Part shown: positions 41,074 to 50,822 of the stretch, in pieces
Numbering within the stretch: the stretch's first letter is position 1
How the letters are laid out: every line of letters starts with the position of its first letter
DNA from: Crenothrix polyspora
GTDB taxonomy: Bacteria; Pseudomonadota; Gammaproteobacteria; Methylococcales; Methylomonadaceae
Assembly (NCBI RefSeq): GCF_900163755.1
Contig: NZ_FUKI01000119.1
Location: 1-64,000 of the forward strand
DNA: 64,000 nt
Reading direction: 5' to 3'
Translations under genes and position numbers: made by a program
Notes under the pieces: model-generated
What the model was told of the DNA's origin: nothing
The model's input: the letters and a program-made list of their open reading frames with translations, nothing else
Databases searched by the model: none

Positions 41074-41754
41074 CTAAGCCATTTGCTTTTTATCGGGCAT
41101 TACACGGCTAGCCCATTTTTGTGACAGAAACAAGCCCGCTAAGCCTATAAGAAACAACGTAATAAGTCTTGTTTCCGGTACGGATTTGGTAACAACAATG
41201 TCATCTATTAAAAACTCTGGATAAAGCCCACCTTGAGCTGTTAATGTTACTGACAGTAGATTGGTAAAGGAAGCAGGAAGGATATATTTTGCCCAGTCGT
41301 AGGGTGCAGCACTATCCAGGGTAACTGTGTGCGACACGGAGATACCGCCTATTAAGTTACCCAGTATATCTATTGATTGAGCTGGGCTATAAGGCGTTTG
41401 TACAGACAAATTGGGTAAAAGATGCCTTGTGCGGCCGCCAGCAAAGAATGACTGCAACGTAAAAGCAGCACCGCCGTCTTTGGTCATTGTAAGAATCGAT
41501 CTTTCCCTCCCATTGATAAGTGCGAAAGTGGGATTGTGTTGGATAACATTAGGGTGGCAGATATACAAATTATTAGAATCAACAGTTGCCGGATTTCCGG
41601 TAAAACTGTAGCCTTGGGTGCTAAGGGTAGTTGCCACATTAGCACATACCGAAACAGGGGTAACAATATTCTGAAAATCAATGACCGTTGCGTATGAGAC
41701 AGTTGAGCCTGCCAGTAATATCAAACCACCTGATAGTTTTGTCCAAATGTTCAT
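41074..41754 (-). CDS. PEP-CTERM-type exported protein
   Basis: The 226-residue product has an N-terminal signal peptide (cleavage near SYA) and a C-terminal sorting signal: VPETR, then a hydrophobic span (LITLFLIGLAGLFLSQKW), then basic residues. The VPE-type motif plus membrane helix plus Arg/Lys tail is the PEP-CTERM pattern handled by exosortase. The body is beta-rich with no known catalytic domain; the phrase FLIDDIVV just before the sorting signal is common in such proteins. The exosortase gene is not in this window. The usual PEP reads PET here, so the call is likely but not certain. Confidence 0.72.
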   Translation of the reverse strand: MNIWTKLSGGLILLAGSTVSYATVIDFQNIVTPVSVCANVATTLSTQGYSFTGNPATVDSNNLYICHPNVIQHNPTFALINGRERSILTMTKDGGAAFTLQSFFAGGRTRHLLPNLSVQTPYSPAQSIDILGNLIGGISVSHTVTLDSAAPYDWAKYILPASFTNLLSVTLTAQGGLYPEFLIDDIVVTKSVPETRLITLFLIGLAGLFLSQKWASRVMPDKKQMA

Positions 41755-42913: not shown

Positions 42914-43258
42914 GTGGCAGAAGCGACAACACCGAAGCAAGTCATCGTCTATGCTAAAGAGAACGGGAAAGAACCCTTTACTGATTGGCTTTACGGGCTG
43001 CGGGATATTATGGTGCGAAAACGTATCCTTGCCCGTGTTTCCCGACTGCAACAAGGTAATTATGGCGATTGCGAGCCGATCGGTGAAGGAATCAGTGAAT
43101 TGCGATTGTTCTTCGGCTCGGGTTACAGAGTCTATTTTGGAGAGAAGAACAATCATATTGTTGTGTTGCTCTGTGGCGGCGACAAAGGCAGCCAAGGCAA
43201 AGACATTGAACAGGCGAAAGCCTTTTGGAAGGAGTATTTGAACCATGAGAACCTTTAG
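42914..43258 (+). CDS. RelE/HigB-superfamily toxin (addiction-module killer protein)
   Basis: The start at GTG 42914 follows AGGAGG. The 114-residue product has the core of the killer-protein family: FTDWLYGLRDIMVRKRILARVSRLQQGNYGDCEPIGEGISELRLFFGSGYRVYFG, with basic residues and a terminal GGDKGSQGKDIEQAKAFWKEY. Members cleave mRNA on the ribosome. The gene precedes its antitoxin, the HigBA order, and overlaps it by 14 bp. Confidence 0.88.
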   Translation: MAEATTPKQVIVYAKENGKEPFTDWLYGLRDIMVRKRILARVSRLQQGNYGDCEPIGEGISELRLFFGSGYRVYFGEKNNHIVVLLCGGDKGSQGKDIEQAKAFWKEYLNHENL

Positions 43259-43568
43259 AGGCATTGGGGAAATCGAAGAGCAATATCTTCGTGACCATCC
43301 CGAAGAAGTGGATGATTACATCAGTGTCCTTTTCGATGAATACGCGGAAAGCGGCGATACTGCCGCTCTGCTATCGTCTTTGCGCGTAGTTAGTCGCGTT
43401 AAGGGCGTGAGCCGGATCGCAGAAACCTCCGGCCTTAGCCGCAAGGGAGTACAAAAAGCCCTTTCCGAAAACGGCAATCCGCAATTTGGCAGCGTTAATG
43501 CTATTATGCATGCAATGGGCTATCGCCTAATCCCGCAGAAACTGCATAATGCACATCATTCCCCATAG
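43245..43568 (+). CDS. HigA-type antitoxin (XRE helix-turn-helix, addiction-module antidote)
   Basis: The 107-residue partner of the preceding toxin carries a helix-turn-helix (SRIAETSGLSRKGVQKALSENGNPQFGSVNAIMHAMGYRL) in its second half. The first half, ending FDEYAESGDTAALLSSLRVVSRVKG, should neutralise the toxin. It likely represses its own operon by binding the 16-bp palindrome at 42870. The coupling by overlap keeps both proteins in step. Confidence 0.88.
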   Translation: MRTFRGIGEIEEQYLRDHPEEVDDYISVLFDEYAESGDTAALLSSLRVVSRVKGVSRIAETSGLSRKGVQKALSENGNPQFGSVNAIMHAMGYRLIPQKLHNAHHSP

Positions 43569-43777: not shown

Positions 43778-44224
43778 TTACCAGCAGTCTGTTCCTGATC
43801 CGGATTTAGTTTTTACGCCTGTATTGGTTAGGCTAAAAGTGCCGCAAATGCTGTCTGGACTAGTACTGTCCGGTGTTGCATTTAATGTATAAGAGGAATC
43901 TGTAGCACTAGAAATGCTTAAGTTATAGGTTTGAATGTGGGGAGTAAGGGTACAACTGGAAGAAGTAGGTACACACTGTGGAAAAACGGTTGCTTTCGGC
44001 GATCCATTATCTGGCGCTCCTGCACCGAGGTAACTATTACCATTTTGCATTTTATAAATTTCCATTGCGTTGGCAAACGATGTTAAAGCGGCTTTGGCAT
44101 CGGCGCGTTTGCTTTTTCTAATCTGTCCCATATAGCTTGGGTAGACAATACTGGCCAATATGCCAACAATGGCTACAGCTATCGTAAGCTCTATTAATGT
44201 AAATCCGTATAATTTGATTTTCAT
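43778..44224 (-). CDS. pilE: Type IVa pilin / PilE-like minor pilin
   Basis: The 148-residue prepilin has a short leader ending in Gly (MKIKLYG) followed by FTLIELTIAVAIVGILASIVYPSY, the class IVa N-methylation motif with Glu5 and the hydrophobic helix. The C-terminus has a pair of cysteines forming a likely D-region loop (CGTFSL...GTDCW). Being last in a minor-pilin cluster, it most resembles PilE, a minor pilin priming or decorating the pilus. It could be the major pilin, but context favours the minor role. Confidence 0.88.
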   Translation of the reverse strand: MKIKLYGFTLIELTIAVAIVGILASIVYPSYMGQIRKSKRADAKAALTSFANAMEIYKMQNGNSYLGAGAPDNGSPKATVFPQCVPTSSSCTLTPHIQTYNLSISSATDSSYTLNATPDSTSPDSICGTFSLTNTGVKTKSGSGTDCW

Positions 44225-44262: not shown

Positions 44263-44784
44263 TTAGGGTGTTGTTGTCACACTAACACGGCCTGATGGAG
44301 CAATGGTGATGGTGCGTTTTTCAGTCGCATTAATTGTTGTAAAATCCATTGTAATTGTAGTTGATGAATTCAACCTACCATCAGAGCGATAAGTGGGGGT
44401 GTCATCATTAGTTCCTGCTGAAGTCACCGTTAGGTCAATATTAGTGGCGGCTTCGTAGCTTTGTATTAATGTTCCTGTTCCAGCCGTGGGTGTGCTAGTT
44501 GGCAAAGTAGAACTTTCCAAAAAAGCAATCCATTTGTTTGGAGCGCTATTGCCATTGTTATCTGTGCCAATGGAAACCCCTGCAAGCCTTACTTTTTTGA
44601 TAGATTCACTACGCGCTAATTGCAAGGCAACAATCATGTCGTTAGCTGATGCGGTTAAGCGATTACTGATAATGGTTGCTCTAATATTGGGGATGCCTAT
44701 GGCTAGCGTAATAGCAATAATAATGAGGACAATCAATAGTTCGATGAGTGTAAAGCCTTTGTAGGCTATGTTAGGCTGTGTCAT
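44263..44784 (-). CDS. fimT: GspH/FimT-family pseudopilin
   Basis: The 173-residue product has a leader ending KG, FTLIELLIVLIIIAITLAIGIPNI, and the FimT/FimU hallmark IVALQLARSESIKK. The C-terminal phrase TMDFTTINATEKRTITIAPSGRVSV matches GspH domains. FimT/FimU minor pilins help start pilus assembly at the tip. It lies between the DUF4114 gene and pilE, whereas in many genomes fimT leads the cluster. Confidence 0.88.
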   Translation of the reverse strand: MTQPNIAYKGFTLIELLIVLIIIAITLAIGIPNIRATIISNRLTASANDMIVALQLARSESIKKVRLAGVSIGTDNNGNSAPNKWIAFLESSTLPTSTPTAGTGTLIQSYEAATNIDLTVTSAGTNDDTPTYRSDGRLNSSTTITMDFTTINATEKRTITIAPSGRVSVTTTP

Positions 44785-44967: not shown

Positions 44968-46578
44968 CTATGGCACGATAGTGGTGTTGACCGTATTATT
45001 ACCGTTACCGTTACCGTTACCGTTGGCTTTGGCCACAGCTTTTGTAGCTTTATTCACATCACCGGTAACTTCAGGTGGTGTTGTTATTTCGCGCCAGCTA
45101 ATAGGGCCGCTTTCACCGCTTGCTGGTGTTATGCAGGTGTTAGTTACTTCATCACGAACTTCTGGCGCAGTACAATTAACGATTGGAATGGGATCACAGG
45201 ATTTAGTTTCCGAATGATATGTTTTTGGTGCAGCGCAACAAGAATTGCTTATTGGATTATAGGCTTCAGGTATGGTGCAAACAGGCGTTGTTGAGCATAG
45301 TTCCGCTGTTGGTAGTGGGCACACTCCGTTCATTTGGAATGTATCATCATGATGACTTAAATGTGTGGTGACGGCATTTTCACTGACACTTACGTACACC
45401 GTTGGGTTAGTTGTACTGGCGGTATTATGGCAAATATTAACCTTGTTACCCATCATGGCAGCCGCTGGAATGGGGGTCGTTGTTACTGGGGTTTTGCAAA
45501 TAGGATCGGGTACTAAAAGGTTACATTTGGCACAATCCACTGCGGGGAATGGCGAGACATGAATGGCAATAATCACATCGTTAAAATCATTGTCACTGGT
45601 GTAGTTATAGTCATTCAATGTACCACTTTGGCGATTAAGATCTTCAAACGCCAGCACCAGTAACTCTTTTTCAGGATAAGAAAACAGGATGGTATGTGCT
45701 TGCAGGTTGCTGGCATTGACAGGTTCAGGATTAAAGCGCTTAATCGTACGAAATATTTTACTGGCCGCTTTATTTGGATCAACTATCCCGCCAGAAGACA
45801 GTACGGCAGGCACGGCAGGTACTGCAGCTTTTGCTTTGACTGCGCGTATTGCGGGTATTGCGGGTCTTGCTGGCGTTGTTATTATTCCGTTTTTAATCAC
45901 AGCTTTTACAGCTTTTACCGCAGGTACAGCCGCTTGTGCAGCTACAGCTGGCACAGCAGGAACAGCAGCTTTACCAGCCACATAAGGTATCCAGCCATTA
46001 GCAATAATGGTAAACCCAATGGCATCACCGGCCACAAAATTCCCTAAATCTACGGTTTTGCCAAATTGCAGAACATTATCCGAAAAATTGGGAAATATAA
46101 TGGTATCAATAACACTGGAAATAGATAGCGTTGTTAGATCTGCTTTAGGAAATTTAAAAAACCCCACTGAATTTAAATACCCAGCACCTTCACTGACATA
46201 CGAAATTTTGATATTGGCATTAGCCTTTAAAAAAATATTAGCTCCTTCATCATTGGTAAGCAGGTCTAATGCTGCTTGATTATTACCTATGGGCTGTCCT
46301 TCTGGTAAGCGGGCTAATACAGTTGCTAATAAGTCAACTGGCAATACGCTACTCTTATCTGTCATGCCAATGGGCTGGCCGTTGGCAGGGTTATAATTGC
46401 TGCTGCCTCCTAAATATTGCCAGTTGGTTGCATGGGCGTTTATGCTATTGAGAGATAATCCCGCCGTTAAACACAGTATGGGTAATAACTGTGTAATAGT
46501 TTTACACCCAAAGTGAGGGGGCTGATTAAGCCGCTCCCTGCCGTCTCCCTGTTGTGCAGCTGTCTTTGTAATAGTCAT
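44968..46578 (-). CDS. DUF4114-domain exported protein in the PilY1 position of the minor-pilin cluster
   Basis: The 536-residue product has a long signal region (hydrophobic 29-46, AHA cleavage near 50). The DUF4114 portion (about 115-340) closes with LLVLAFEDLNR and TSDNDFNDVIIAI, acidic residues that could bind calcium. It is interrupted at 202-260 by an Ala/Pro/Val-rich low-complexity insert. Cys-rich stretches follow (360-480), and the tail has an Asn-Gly repeat. It is placed between pilX and fimT, where a PilY1 adhesin is expected. Its function is unknown; a tip adhesin or surface protein linked to pili is inferred only from context. Confidence 0.75.
   Translation of the reverse strand: MTITKTAAQQGDGRERLNQPPHFGCKTITQLLPILCLTAGLSLNSINAHATNWQYLGGSSNYNPANGQPIGMTDKSSVLPVDLLATVLARLPEGQPIGNNQAALDLLTNDEGANIFLKANANIKISYVSEGAGYLNSVGFFKFPKADLTTLSISSVIDTIIFPNFSDNVLQFGKTVDLGNFVAGDAIGFTIIANGWIPYVAGKAAVPAVPAVAAQAAVPAVKAVKAVIKNGIITTPARPAIPAIRAVKAKAAVPAVPAVLSSGGIVDPNKAASKIFRTIKRFNPEPVNASNLQAHTILFSYPEKELLVLAFEDLNRQSGTLNDYNYTSDNDFNDVIIAIHVSPFPAVDCAKCNLLVPDPICKTPVTTTPIPAAAMMGNKVNICHNTASTTNPTVYVSVSENAVTTHLSHHDDTFQMNGVCPLPTAELCSTTPVCTIPEAYNPISNSCCAAPKTYHSETKSCDPIPIVNCTAPEVRDEVTNTCITPASGESGPISWREITTPPEVTGDVNKATKAVAKANGNGNGNGNNTVNTTIVP
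44998..45025 (-). repeat. 6-bp microsatellite (TTACCG)n in the DUF4114 gene
   Basis: Four or more TTACCG units encode the Asn-Gly run near the C-terminus. In-frame slippage would change the tail length without frameshift. Confidence 0.7.
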
Positions 46579-46649: not shown

Positions 46650-47438
46650 TTAGGGTGCATTTGCCATGTTTAAATCGCCTGAACAGTCGATTTCAAATTT
46701 TGATTCAATAGTGCGCTCAGTATCAGTTGTGTCGATGAACTTGACGTGTAAGGTATAAACTTCAATTTGGCAGGCATTAGGATTGGGATGGCTTGTTGTC
46801 CATAGGGTGTTTGCTATTACGCCACCTGCTTTATTCAGCTTGTCACAAGCGGCTACGTTTTCAGTATCTGGTATAGGTGGTACTGCCAGCACGGGTGGTG
46901 TAGCTGTTGCATCCCCCAGCACTTCATCTTGCTCACTTCCCACAACCAGATTACGTATTCCCGTGTCGCTGTAGAGGCATTTGTGCTCATTACCCACAGG
47001 AGGTTTTGGACCGTTCCCATCTGGATCGGCATAATTGGAAATGCAATACTCTTCTTTTACTTTTGCGGTGACAGTTGAGTTATTTTGGTTGATGAGTATG
47101 CCTGAGGCGTGCGGATAAAGATGTACGGAGTGAGCTGTATCACTGCTGTTGCAGTGCTTATGAGCTTTGCCATCATCTGCATCGATAATATCACCATCTC
47201 CATTAGCGTCTACATAGCGCTTTAGCTCAAGCACTGACTGTGCTTGCCGCAAAATGGTTTCAACACCCGCAAAGGTAACAGTTTGTTGGGCAGCATTGGT
47301 GGCTATGGCGATTTGGACTTTGTTTTGTCTGATCATACTGACACTTGCCAGCGTTAATACGACCAATATCATCAGGGTAAATGCTAAAACCGCCCCGTGT
47401 TGATTTTTTAGAGAGTATGATTTCATGCTGAATCTCAT
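46650..47438 (-). CDS. pilX: Type IV pilus minor pilin assembly protein PilX
   Basis: The 262-residue product has the PilX N-terminal pattern GAVLAFTLMILVVLTLASVSMIRQNKVQIAIATNAAQ, a GAxL-type start without the FTLIE motif. It is followed by a large globular part with paired cysteines. It is co-translated with pilW (ATGA overlap). PilX joins the minor-pilin complex at the pilus tip with PilV, PilW and FimU. An internal ATG at 47426 is a possible alternate start. Confidence 0.88.
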   Translation of the reverse strand: MRFSMKSYSLKNQHGAVLAFTLMILVVLTLASVSMIRQNKVQIAIATNAAQQTVTFAGVETILRQAQSVLELKRYVDANGDGDIIDADDGKAHKHCNSSDTAHSVHLYPHASGILINQNNSTVTAKVKEEYCISNYADPDGNGPKPPVGNEHKCLYSDTGIRNLVVGSEQDEVLGDATATPPVLAVPPIPDTENVAACDKLNKAGGVIANTLWTTSHPNPNACQIEVYTLHVKFIDTTDTERTIESKFEIDCSGDLNMANAP

Positions 47439-48367
47439 AAAAGTTGATTACGTAAGGCAATAGTCGTGACAAAAGTTTTATACAAACGATAATCGGTAGC
47501 GGTATAGCTGGTTCCTTCAACTTGGTAACTCAAATGGGTATTCGTTAAAAAATCCTCTTCACTCCTAACGACGACCGATAACCGAATACTGACAACGTGT
47601 TGCCATAAAGCAGTCGTTACTTGGGTGGCATCGGCATAATAGTTGGCCGCGTTATCCGCATCTGAATCCACCCCATAACGCATCACTAATTTGATCGCAT
47701 TGCTGATGAGTCCAACAGAGGTGTCCGTGCTGTGGAAGTCGGTTGTACTCATGCAGTTTTTGGCGCATGTTTCTGTTGCACCGCCACCACCACTGGTATT
47801 TGGCAACGTTCGCTGCGCTACGCAGGACAACGTGGTGCCATTAAGATAAAAATACACATTGGCGACGTGTTCTATCACGCTCGGATCTTCGCCAGGATCC
47901 AATAAAATATTTTGCGTGCAAGGTGAACTACCGTTACTCGCTGCACCAGCACTTAAATCTTGGTTATCTAATAATTGATAACGAATAGCAAAGGCATCAT
48001 TAGGAGGAGAGGTGGCATCGCCTTTAATATATTCACTTCCGCTAAAATCTATATTTGTTACTAATAATGGCACTGTTGGGGCTAAAGTCGGTTCGGTGTT
48101 CAACACATTGTTATGCGTTAAAAAGATACGGTCATTAGTGCCAGCAGCATCCGAGCGGCTTCTTAAACCACCTGTGCGCCTAATTTCTTTTTGCAATACT
48201 TCTTGCACATAACTGCTGTCATCGGCCATAGTGGCCATTGCACGTTGTATGCGGTTACTTTTTTGCGTGTGTGAAAATAAGCTGCCGATACCGGCAATCA
48301 AGCTCAAACTTAAAGTCATGCTGACCATTAGTTCAACCAAGGTCATGCCATGTTGTTGCTTATTCAT
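47435..48367 (-). CDS. pilW: Type IV pilus minor pilin PilW
   Basis: The 310-residue prepilin begins MNKQQHGMTLVELMVSMTLSLSLIAGIGSLF, the PilW form of the prepilin leader and helix. It includes QKSNRIQRAMATMADDSSYVQEVLQKEIRRTG, a conserved PilW stretch, and several cysteines. It overlaps pilV upstream and pilX downstream by 4 bp each, so the three are a strict translational unit. Confidence 0.9.
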   Translation of the reverse strand: MNKQQHGMTLVELMVSMTLSLSLIAGIGSLFSHTQKSNRIQRAMATMADDSSYVQEVLQKEIRRTGGLRSRSDAAGTNDRIFLTHNNVLNTEPTLAPTVPLLVTNIDFSGSEYIKGDATSPPNDAFAIRYQLLDNQDLSAGAASNGSSPCTQNILLDPGEDPSVIEHVANVYFYLNGTTLSCVAQRTLPNTSGGGGATETCAKNCMSTTDFHSTDTSVGLISNAIKLVMRYGVDSDADNAANYYADATQVTTALWQHVVSIRLSVVVRSEEDFLTNTHLSYQVEGTSYTATDYRLYKTFVTTIALRNQLL

Positions 48368-48870
48368 GGGGTAATATCCAATCGAAATGTGTTGGTGGTG
48401 TTGGTGCTTTTCGTATGGTTACGGTTCCAGCTAATGGTGATGCAAACATTTGGCGCCCCCATGCAAACACCAGTTGCAGAAGGCGGCTGGGTTACAGTGA
48501 CAACTACGCCTGTACCCCCCAGCCTGTTTTGTACATTGGCTTTCCAGGCGCAATAATCATATTTAGCCATCTGTGCTGGTGTGCATTGATTGGTAAAGTT
48601 GCACCGGGTATTTAGGTTGCTGCAATCAAAATCAGCGTCGTCCATGGAAGTGGGCCCCAGTGGATCACTCCACTCATTCCGATTAACTTTTATCCGGTCA
48701 CTCATCTCATAAGCCAACGTGGAAGCCTGGGAATAAAAAAACGCATCCTGGTTATCTTTTAGCGCCAGTGTTTGCATGGCGGCTAAGCCCAATAAACCGA
48801 TGGCCAGAATAATAGTCGAAACCAAGACCTCAATTAACGTAAATCCCCTAGCCTTTTGATGATCCAACAT
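48364..48870 (-). CDS. pilV: Type IV pilus modification protein PilV
   Basis: The 168-residue product starts MLDHQKARGFTLIEVLVSTIILAIGLLGLAAMQ, the PilV signature, and GGAG lies ahead of the ATG. The globular part holds cysteine pairs (DCSNLNTRC, CTPAQMAKYDYCAW, VCMGAPNVC). It is first in the minor-pilin operon, running pilV-pilW-pilX-DUF4114-fimT-pilE on the minus strand. Confidence 0.9.
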   Translation of the reverse strand: MLDHQKARGFTLIEVLVSTIILAIGLLGLAAMQTLALKDNQDAFFYSQASTLAYEMSDRIKVNRNEWSDPLGPTSMDDADFDCSNLNTRCNFTNQCTPAQMAKYDYCAWKANVQNRLGGTGVVVTVTQPPSATGVCMGAPNVCITISWNRNHTKSTNTTNTFRLDITP

Positions 48871-49217: not shown

Positions 49218-49475
49218 ATGCAATCCGAACAATGGTCACTACAGGATGCAAAAAATAAACTCAGTGCTTTAGTGGATGCCGCGCAACATGGCAAAGCCCA
49301 GATTGTGACCCGCCGTGGCATACCCGCAGCGGTTGTGGTGTCTTTTGAAGAGTTTGAAAAATTACAACGCCTTGAGGCAATGCAGGCACCGACATTTATA
49401 GATCACCTGCTGAACATGCCTACCGATGACCTTGCATTTGAACGCATGGATATTGGCTTAAGAGATTTTGATTAA
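49218..49475 (+). CDS. Phd/YefM-family antitoxin
   Basis: The 85-residue protein begins WSLQDAKNKLSALVDAAQHGKAQIVTRRGIPAAVVVSFEEFEKLQ, the standard Phd/YefM DNA-binding domain. An acidic tail follows (NMPTDDLAFERMDIGLRDFD) that would wrap the toxin. Its stop codon shares a base with the start of the PIN toxin gene, giving tight coupling. Type II antitoxin with autoregulation by the upstream inverted repeat is inferred. Confidence 0.92.
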   Translation: MQSEQWSLQDAKNKLSALVDAAQHGKAQIVTRRGIPAAVVVSFEEFEKLQRLEAMQAPTFIDHLLNMPTDDLAFERMDIGLRDFD

Positions 49476-49876
49476 TGCCTTATTTACTGGATATTGATAT
49501 TCTTTCCGCCATTCGTTGTAAACAACGCGATATCAATCTTGAAACATGGCTACGTAGCATCACGTCATCAGATGTTTTTATAAGCGTCGTCACCGTGGGT
49601 GAAATTGAACGCGGCATTGCCCAGCAAAGGCGTGTTAATCCCAAATTTGCTGACGATTTAGACAATTGGCTGAATACCATTTTACACCGCCACGAACAGC
49701 GCATCTTGCCCTTAACAACCGGTATCGCCCGCCGATGGGGTCAGCTAAGCGGTGAACTTGGACACAACAATGCCGATTTAATGATTGCAGCTACCGCACT
49801 GGAACACAATCTAGTTGTAGTAACGCGTAACACGCGTCATTTTGAGCCAACCAAAGTTACCCTACTTAATCCTTAG
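49475..49876 (+). CDS. PIN-domain ribonuclease toxin (VapC/FitB-like)
   Basis: The 133-residue protein has the PIN acidic residues: Asp6/Asp8 in YLLDIDILSAI, Glu in VGEIERG, Asp in NNADLMIAATA, and the tail VVTRNTRHFEPT. The fold binds Mg2+ and cuts RNA; VapC toxins typically target tRNA or rRNA. It is paired with the preceding Phd-type antitoxin. The TAG stop codon overlaps the first bases of a 101-bp repeat element, so the present C-terminus may have been set by the insertion. Confidence 0.92.
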   Translation: MPYLLDIDILSAIRCKQRDINLETWLRSITSSDVFISVVTVGEIERGIAQQRRVNPKFADDLDNWLNTILHRHEQRILPLTTGIARRWGQLSGELGHNNADLMIAATALEHNLVVVTRNTRHFEPTKVTLLNP

Positions 49877-50057: not shown

Positions 50058-50822
50058 ATGAATTCCAATACGTTGCCTTCTCCTACACTCGATGATATTT
50101 TGCGTTTATTTCAAGAAACTGATCGCATTATCAAAGAAAGGCAAAAAGAAACCGACCGCAAATTTCAGGAAAATGAGCGCATTACTATAGAAAGGCAAAA
50201 AGAAACCGACCGCAAATTTCAGGAAAATGAGCGCATTATTATAGAAAGGCAAAAAGAAACCGACCGCAAATTTCAGGAAAATGAGCGCATTATTATAGAA
50301 AGGCAAAAAGAAACTGACCGTAAATTTCAGGAAAACGACCGCTTTATCAAAGAAAGCCAAAAAGAAATGGCTTTGTCAATTAAAGCGGTTAATACCGCTA
50401 TTGGCAAATTGGGCAATCGTTTAGGCGAATTTGTCGAAGAAGCTGTGCGGCCTTCTGCCGTGCGTTTATTTCGTGAGTGCGGTATTGATGTGCATGAGGT
50501 TCAGCAAAATATTGTTGCCAAGCGCAATGGTGAAACGCTGGAATTGGATTTGTTAGTTATTAACGATAAAGATGCCGTTGCCATTGAATGTAAAAGCCAT
50601 CTCAGTATTGATGATGTTAACGAACACATAGCACGTCTGGAAAAAATCAAACGGTTGTTGCCGCGTTACAAAGATAATCGCATGTTAGGTGCGGTTGCCG
50701 GTATGGTTATTCCTGAAAACGTGGCGCTGTATGCCATCCGAAAGGGTTTGTACGTAATAGGGCAAAATGGCGATCATTTGGAATTGCGTAATGAATCGAT
50801 CTTTGTTGCCAAAGCGTGGTGA
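50058..50822 (+). CDS. Coiled-coil protein with DUF3782/PD-(D/E)XK nuclease-like domain
   Basis: The 254-residue product has an N-terminal coiled coil made of 18-residue repeats (RQKETDRKFQENERIIIE, about residues 27-98). The C-terminal half has the nuclease-like core ETLELDLLVINDKDAVAIECKSHLS, where D and E-x-K match the PD-(D/E)XK pattern. This fits the DUF3782 family, often found near toxin-antitoxin and other accessory genes. Its biological target is unknown. Confidence 0.8.
   Translation: MNSNTLPSPTLDDILRLFQETDRIIKERQKETDRKFQENERITIERQKETDRKFQENERIIIERQKETDRKFQENERIIIERQKETDRKFQENDRFIKESQKEMALSIKAVNTAIGKLGNRLGEFVEEAVRPSAVRLFRECGIDVHEVQQNIVAKRNGETLELDLLVINDKDAVAIECKSHLSIDDVNEHIARLEKIKRLLPRYKDNRMLGAVAGMVIPENVALYAIRKGLYVIGQNGDHLELRNESIFVAKAW
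50136..50351 (+). repeat. 54-bp in-frame tandem repeat, four copies
   Basis: Units begin at 50136, 50190, 50244 and 50298, nearly identical, and a degenerate fifth begins at 50352. They encode the coiled-coil of the DUF3782-like gene; copy number changes would lengthen or shorten the coil by 18 residues. Confidence 0.92.

Follow-up and report, generated by a model that had tools for sequence, protein, structure and literature searches.

PilY1/PilC adhesins (PF05567) are encoded in the slot after pilX and combine a Sec-type signal, a seven-bladed propeller and a C-terminal W tail; they are proposed tip adhesins of type IVa pili (T4aP) with a calcium site. PilY1 is usually regarded as required, and the propeller is taken to be the part that joins the pilus. 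In published models, the C-terminus of PilY1 supplies PilX with an additional strand at the pilus tip (PMC11046646; PMC13190605), and the general idea that the tips of type IV filaments are completed by strand complementation is already in print, including a 2026 preprint cited in PMC13190605. In Myxococcus xanthus, PilY1.1 and PilY1.2 place a DUF4114 domain at the T4aP tip, are linked to minor pilins and are proposed to bind polysaccharide in a calcium-dependent manner (PMC9109919; PMC13190605). Normal motility depends on the DUF4114 domain of PilY1.1 and on D498, a proposed calcium residue of this domain (PMC9109919), and the three minor-pilin/PilY1 clusters of Myxococcus are used unequally (PMC13190605). 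The T4P tip of Streptococcus sanguinis (PilA, PilB and PilC, with lectin and vWA modules) also presents a lectin (PMC11046646).

Here we describe a DUF4114 gene of Crenothrix polyspora, located in a 64,000-nt stretch of DNA that we refer to as the window. Its product resembles PilY1/PilC adhesins in slot, signal, tail and proposed tip and calcium functions, but it has no propeller, is about a third of the length and carries the tail short of the very end. Unlike the Myxococcus proteins, in which DUF4114 is the N-terminal part of a propeller protein, it bears DUF4114 without a propeller, and unlike in S. sanguinis the adhesive domain is not grafted onto a pilin. Its predicted core resembles LecB/PA-IIL lectins (LecB, BclA, RS-IIL, CV-IIL), including their E-D...D-x-D-x-N-D pattern, but it has extra N- and C-terminal regions and an insert within DUF4114, lacks the C-terminal glycine ligand and is only a putative sugar binder. 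Pilin-unlinked DUF4114 proteins of Gammaproteobacteria, Bacteroidota and other groups share the domain, but lack pilin neighbours and a W tail and have different C-terminal regions.

Results

A DUF4114 gene in the pilY1 slot of a minor-pilin cluster

The gene begins with ATG and has an uninterrupted reading frame for 536 aa (Table 1). Pfam and TIGR matches to all neighbours bear out the order pilV-pilW-pilX-X-fimT-pilE and the coordinates reported in a first-pass annotation of this DNA. The DUF4114 domain with an acidic loop, TSDNDFNDV, reported by the same annotation is confirmed by the PF13448 match (46.5 bits, above the curated cut-off of 27), the loop being residues 327-335. The absence of the PilY1 propeller likewise holds, as Pfam gives no match to PF05567, the PilY1 C-terminal beta-propeller, at E ≤ 1. 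NCBIfam and PHROGs return no match for the protein. A truncated or frameshifted PilY1 was rejected, because the frame is open throughout, the domain is a different one and the gene is conserved among relatives. pilV, pilW and pilX are joined by 4-base overlaps, the DUF4114 gene starts 71 bases past pilX, and no terminator-like site was found in the gap between these two genes.

The pilin cluster is flanked by toxin-antitoxin-like pairs, with a Gp49-like/HI1420-type antidote on one side (42914-43568) and Phd-YefM/PIN domains on the other (49218-49876). Farther out lie a PEP-CTERM-type protein of the NF038120 family, scoring under the family cut-off (41074-41754), and a coiled-coil protein with near-identical repeats (ERIIIERQKETDRKFQEN; 50058-50822).

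Table 1. Features of the DUF4114 gene, its product and the surrounding minor-pilin genes in the window
Feature	Coordinates	Strand	Evidence
DUF4114 protein in PilY1 slot, proposed pilus-tip lectin	44968..46578	-	536 aa; PF13448 E = 7.6e-12; PF05567 none; slot kept in relatives
pilV minor pilin	48364..48870	-	TIGR02523 E = 2e-26
pilW minor pilin	47435..48367	-	PF16074 E = 1.5e-17
pilX minor pilin, proposed tail socket	46650..47438	-	PilX_N weak, E = 0.009; position; prepilin-like N-terminus; same-slot relatives
fimT/GspH-type minor pilin	44263..44784	-	PF12019 E = 4e-10
pilE/ComP-like minor pilin	43778..44224	-	PF16732 E = 2e-17
N-terminal Sec-type signal sequence, about residues 1-50	46429..46578	-	By eye: hydrophobic stretch, then AHA
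Predicted lectin-like core, residues 52-345	45544..46425	-	AlphaFold2 pLDDT; VIA-align LecB-family rows
Ala/Val/Pro-rich low-complexity insert within the DUF4114 domain, residues 203-257	45808..45972	-	Alignment A1
Glu312-Asp313, invariant; in-order match to LecB Glu95-Asp96	45640..45645	-	10/10 sequences; LecB ligands from PMC8752737
Acidic loop DNDFND, residues 329-334, candidate calcium site	45577..45594	-	Invariant in 10/10; spacing of LecB D99/D101/N103/D104
Cys/His motif region KVNICH...HLSHHDD, residues 378-425	45304..45447	-	Sequence; no Pfam model; also in other slot proteins
PilY1-type C-terminal tail SGPISWREI, residues 490-498	45085..45111	-	PilY1-tail matrix score 17.2

PilY1 proteins and further minor-pilin clusters of the same genome

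Two PF05567 proteins are encoded in the genome, on contigs C45 and C101 (1355 and 1514 aa), in clusters ordered fimT-pilV-pilW-pilX-pilY1-pilE and pilW-pilX-pilY1, respectively. The DUF4114 protein, first put at about half the size of PilY1, is thus nearer a third. A fourth pilW cluster, on contig C14, encodes a 1260-aa protein (L066:2970-6752) that ends in SGLISWREITN. Searches of Pfam, including PF05567, NCBIfam and PDB sequences gave this protein no naming match, and its slot and SGLISWREI tail point to a divergent PilY1-like protein. PilM is present in a single copy. The genome has four minor-pilin sets and apparently a single T4aP machine, an arrangement comparable to the three sets of Myxococcus (PMC13190605).

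Since the two PilY1 genes and the divergent one each stand beside their own minor pilins, the DUF4114 gene is an alternative to PilY1 and not the sole tip protein of the genome. On the same ground, service of the DUF4114 cluster by a PilY1 from elsewhere in the genome, a prospect raised by the first-pass annotation, was rejected: such genes do exist elsewhere, and each has its own pilins.

The slot is kept in relatives

Eight genomes have a DUF4114 gene flanked by pilX and fimT or, where the contig stops, adjoining either gene (G000, G001, G002, G028, G204, G220, G224 and the L107 genome, in which it adjoins pilX). In both genomes of the same genus the position of the gene is unchanged within the reach of their short contigs, and the arrangement spans the genus Crenothrix and three further Methylococcales genera, one of them represented by G028. 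Four of the genomes (G028, G204, G220 and G224) have pilW and no PF05567 match, which bears out the suggestion that DUF4114 and minor pilins may co-occur elsewhere in Methylococcales without pilY1, where "without" means none detectable, PF05567 being an imperfect detector that misses the C14 protein. It seems that the DUF4114 cluster can serve these four genomes as their sole tip set. The idea of the gene as a substitute for an absent pilY1 is therefore upheld for several relatives and fails for the C. polyspora genome, in which PilY1 is present.

The DUF4114 protein carries a PilY1-type tail

PilY1 C-termini of Methylococcales follow a consensus defined in this analysis, G-R-x-S-W-x-[QE]-[LI]. 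In a sample of Gammaproteobacteria with each family represented by a single genome, the W tail is present in 28 of 29 complete PilY1 C-termini, the sole exception being a gene with an internal stop, and 21 score at least 13 against our tail matrix. This matrix was trained on 30 PilY1 C-termini only; it gives the 536-aa protein 17.2 and the top unrelated protein among 544 a score of 13.0. Among 108,800 shuffled C-termini, only 2 score at least as high as the 536-aa protein, and a chance tail was rejected for this reason. SGPISWREI is followed by 38 residues in the 536-aa protein, whereas the PilY1 tail is the very end; the distance of tails from the protein end varies, up to 42 residues.

The tail is found in all seven complete pilin-linked DUF4114 proteins at the Methylococcales loci read (SGPISWREI, SGPISWREV, GGRQSWSER, SGRQSWSER, SGRMNWREK and SGRQTWHES), while the copy in G002 ends inside the tail. 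None of the 14 loci with unlinked DUF4114 proteins in Methylococcales outside G035 has it, nor does any of the DUF4114 proteins away from pilins that were examined outside Methylococcales. In G035, four DUF4114 genes with SGPxxW tails are orphans that do not adjoin pilins (L048:7601-8563, L049:198-1178, L050:4893-6005 and L051:326-757), and the single pilVWX cluster of this genome has a different tail-bearing protein in the slot. Tail and pilin linkage are associated (Fisher p = 3e-4) with the four G035 orphans counted against, in a set of related genomes whose events are not independent. Pilin linkage of tail-bearing DUF4114 proteins is not absolute, as the G035 orphans show; judged by their tails, these orphans may be alternative or spare heads for the pilVWX cluster of G035. 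DUF4114 orthologues unlinked to pilins, which the first-pass annotation had set against its own reading, thus occur with tails in one relative, G035.

Predicted fold and candidate calcium site

We modelled the 536-aa protein with AlphaFold2 from an input alignment of 10 sequences. The pLDDT is about 70-95 outside an insert (about residues 203-260), giving a fairly confident core of about residues 52-200 and 262-345, and confidence is low at the protein ends and in the tail. The Ala/Val/Pro-rich insert is not present in relatives in alignment A1, and it would explain why Pfam covers only the later part of the DUF4114 domain here. A Foldseek search of the PDB with the predicted protein gave nothing at E ≤ 0.001, and a PDB sequence search with the family profile gave no match. 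In VIA-align, LecB-family lectins fill the top 11 rows, aligning 106-110 residues (model residues 108-344) with Z of 6.3-7.5, all below 8, a range in which Z can reflect a common arrangement; the row after them has 3.8. From this uniform top block and the gap to the following row, the predicted core is likely, but not certain, to have the LecB-family fold, and a claim placing DUF4114 in LecB-type lectins is also made in PMC9109919.

LecB binds calcium through Glu95, Asp99, Asp101, Asn103 and Asp104, among other ligands, and fucose through Asp96 (PMC8752737). Compared by sequence order, E95, D99, D101, N103 and D104 of LecB agree in order with E312, D329, D331, N333 and D334, all of which are invariant. 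Specifically, E312-D313 and D329-x-D331-x-N333-D334, as well as F332, are identical in all 10 aligned family members, with an insertion between the two segments relative to LecB. The C-terminal glycine carboxylate of LecB, a calcium ligand for the neighbouring subunit, is absent; it cannot be copied here because the chain continues for about 190 residues past the domain.

Other heads in the slot and tails on PilX

We surveyed the slot in 33 genomes that were positive for pilW and negative for PF05567. A tail-bearing protein is present in the cluster in 23 of the 33: a DUF4114 protein in 4, a Cys/His protein in 8, an Ig-repeat protein in 3, PilX itself in 7 and a short protein in 1 (G129). Five clusters are cut at a contig end or at the end of the fetched stretch (G014, G218, G127, G177 and G165), and the tail match of L198 (G165) was left out, its ORF being cut at the stretch end. 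No tail-bearing protein was found in another five clusters (G089, G121, G137, G210 and G214).

The Cys/His proteins are low-complexity, tail-bearing slot proteins without a DUF4114 match (G016, G017, G023, G035, G108, G223, G232 and G244). A motif for which Pfam has no model, KITICHVPPGNPxNxHTI...AH, occurs in low-complexity slot proteins (L059:6394-7773, L060:8325-9509, L061:4210-6360, L064:5456-6787, L187:4972-6348, L190:2745-4343 and L202:5517-6737) and also in the Cys/His region of the 536-aa DUF4114 protein. Tail-bearing Ig-repeat slot proteins, likewise without a DUF4114 match, occur in G188, G199 and G228, and we propose from their sequences that they are another type of tip head. Large Ig-repeat proteins by pilVWX (L186:1-3057, L203:2-3100 and L201:8055-11000) end in QLNWKEVVK or QLMWKEVV; Big_13 is found in related ones.

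In seven PilY1-less genomes, a tail or a variant of it extends past the end of PilX (L204:4304-4858, L195:3965-4522, L197:1277-1831, L189:6490-6900, L193:4196-4615, L191:6032-6451 and L199:3833-4186). These tails read SRRIAWREIVN (G237), SRRVAWREIVN (G141), KKRIAWHEIVN (G132), ISWKEIVE (G226) and KYWKEMIQ (G208), with W-less variants LSLKEIVEK and LNLREIIEK in G236 and G163. In PilX of G237, the Pfam PilX match stops at residue 167 and the tail is residues 175-183; AlphaFold2 places strands at 160-172 and at the tail with low confidence (pLDDT 43-56). No tail was found at the end of PilX beside a separate head in the loci read. Because two genera carry the PilX tail (G132, G141 and G237 in one; G163, G208, G226 and G236 in the other), this state was either gained two or more times or lost in between. 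Also found in the genus of G132, G141 and G237 are PilY1 proteins whose open frames are short, at about 718-741 codons, and these frames together with the PilX tails suggest a possible reduction series.

Discussion

An alternative pilus-tip protein or calcium-dependent adhesin, as the first-pass annotation proposed, is the best-supported reading of this gene, from sequence and model evidence comprising the slot, the tail, the LecB-like predicted fold and the PilY1-less relatives. We consider it probable that a secreted calcium-dependent lectin is the head of a T4aP tip complex in which it replaces PilY1. Judging from its N-terminus, the DUF4114 protein would be exported by Sec. Through SGPISWREI, PilX from the same operon would then gain a beta-strand, in the way that models show for the C-terminus of PilY1, and the protein would sit on the PilX/PilV/PilW/FimT tip complex, taking over the mounting and priming role of PilY1. 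We infer the docking of the tail on PilX from the shared tail, the shared slot, the PilX proteins with an attached tail and the published PilX-PilY1 models. Given the predicted fold and the invariant residues, the LecB-like core may bind a polysaccharide via calcium in the E-D...D-x-D-x-N-D site; the target could, at a guess, be a polysaccharide belonging to the methanotroph or to one of its neighbours. The four minor-pilin clusters and the single pilM might allow a cell to equip the pili of one machine with various heads. The simplest reading of the published models and the tail data is that the tail acts as a plug, PilX as its socket and the rest of the protein as a head chosen for the target. 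The DUF4114 protein, which is not PilY1 by domain, probably works like PilY1.

The protein might instead be an accessory head only, with the PilY1 clusters priming most pili and the DUF4114 cluster specialised, conditional or rarely expressed. This has a real chance of being right, though somewhat short of even: the two PF05567 PilY1 genes and the divergent one have minor pilins of their own, the genome has a single PilM, and Myxococcus offers a precedent in the unequal use of its clusters. Against it, the four relatives named above keep the DUF4114 cluster without a detectable PilY1, but they say little about the C. polyspora genome itself.

Two further readings take the protein, or its tail, away from the tip. 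That it is a calcium-dependent lectin of the matrix, secreted or held at the cell surface outside the pilus and merely co-transcribed with minor pilins, would suit the fact that most DUF4114 proteins are unlinked to pilins, as well as the orphan copies in G035. We regard this as unlikely, given that the PilY1-type tail is limited to the pilin-linked group and the G035 orphans, whereas other unlinked DUF4114 proteins lack it. Alternatively, the tail could be a sorting or export signal of proteins that use the pilus machinery, not a docking strand; such a tag could take the form of a short motif at the C-terminus of proteins that are otherwise unrelated, and the position of the tail is variable. 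PilX in seven genomes bears the tail, however, although PilX relatives need no such tag, and the PilY1 C-terminus is modelled as a strand on PilX (PMC11046646), which makes a sorting signal quite improbable. A tip head mounted through its tail is the reading that we prefer.

Neither the occurrence of DUF4114 at T4aP tips nor strand addition between PilX and PilY1 is new. The literature searched has no apparent description of a propeller-free DUF4114 head, of a common tail or of a tail on PilX, and a full-text search found no paper combining PilY1 with the tail sequence. We lean, by a little, towards a more general proposal, namely that the plug of T4aP tips is a standard one, consisting of a C-terminal W tail by which PilX is completed. 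A head could then arise from any secreted domain bearing the tail, be it a propeller, a DUF4114 lectin, a Cys/His low-complexity protein or an Ig-repeat protein, while headless lineages would put the plug on PilX, making it self-completing. If this is true, the propeller-free tip proteins and the PilX proteins that carry the last strand only would confine the joining function to some nine residues, and strand addition at the T4aP tip would become directly testable by mutation and head swapping.
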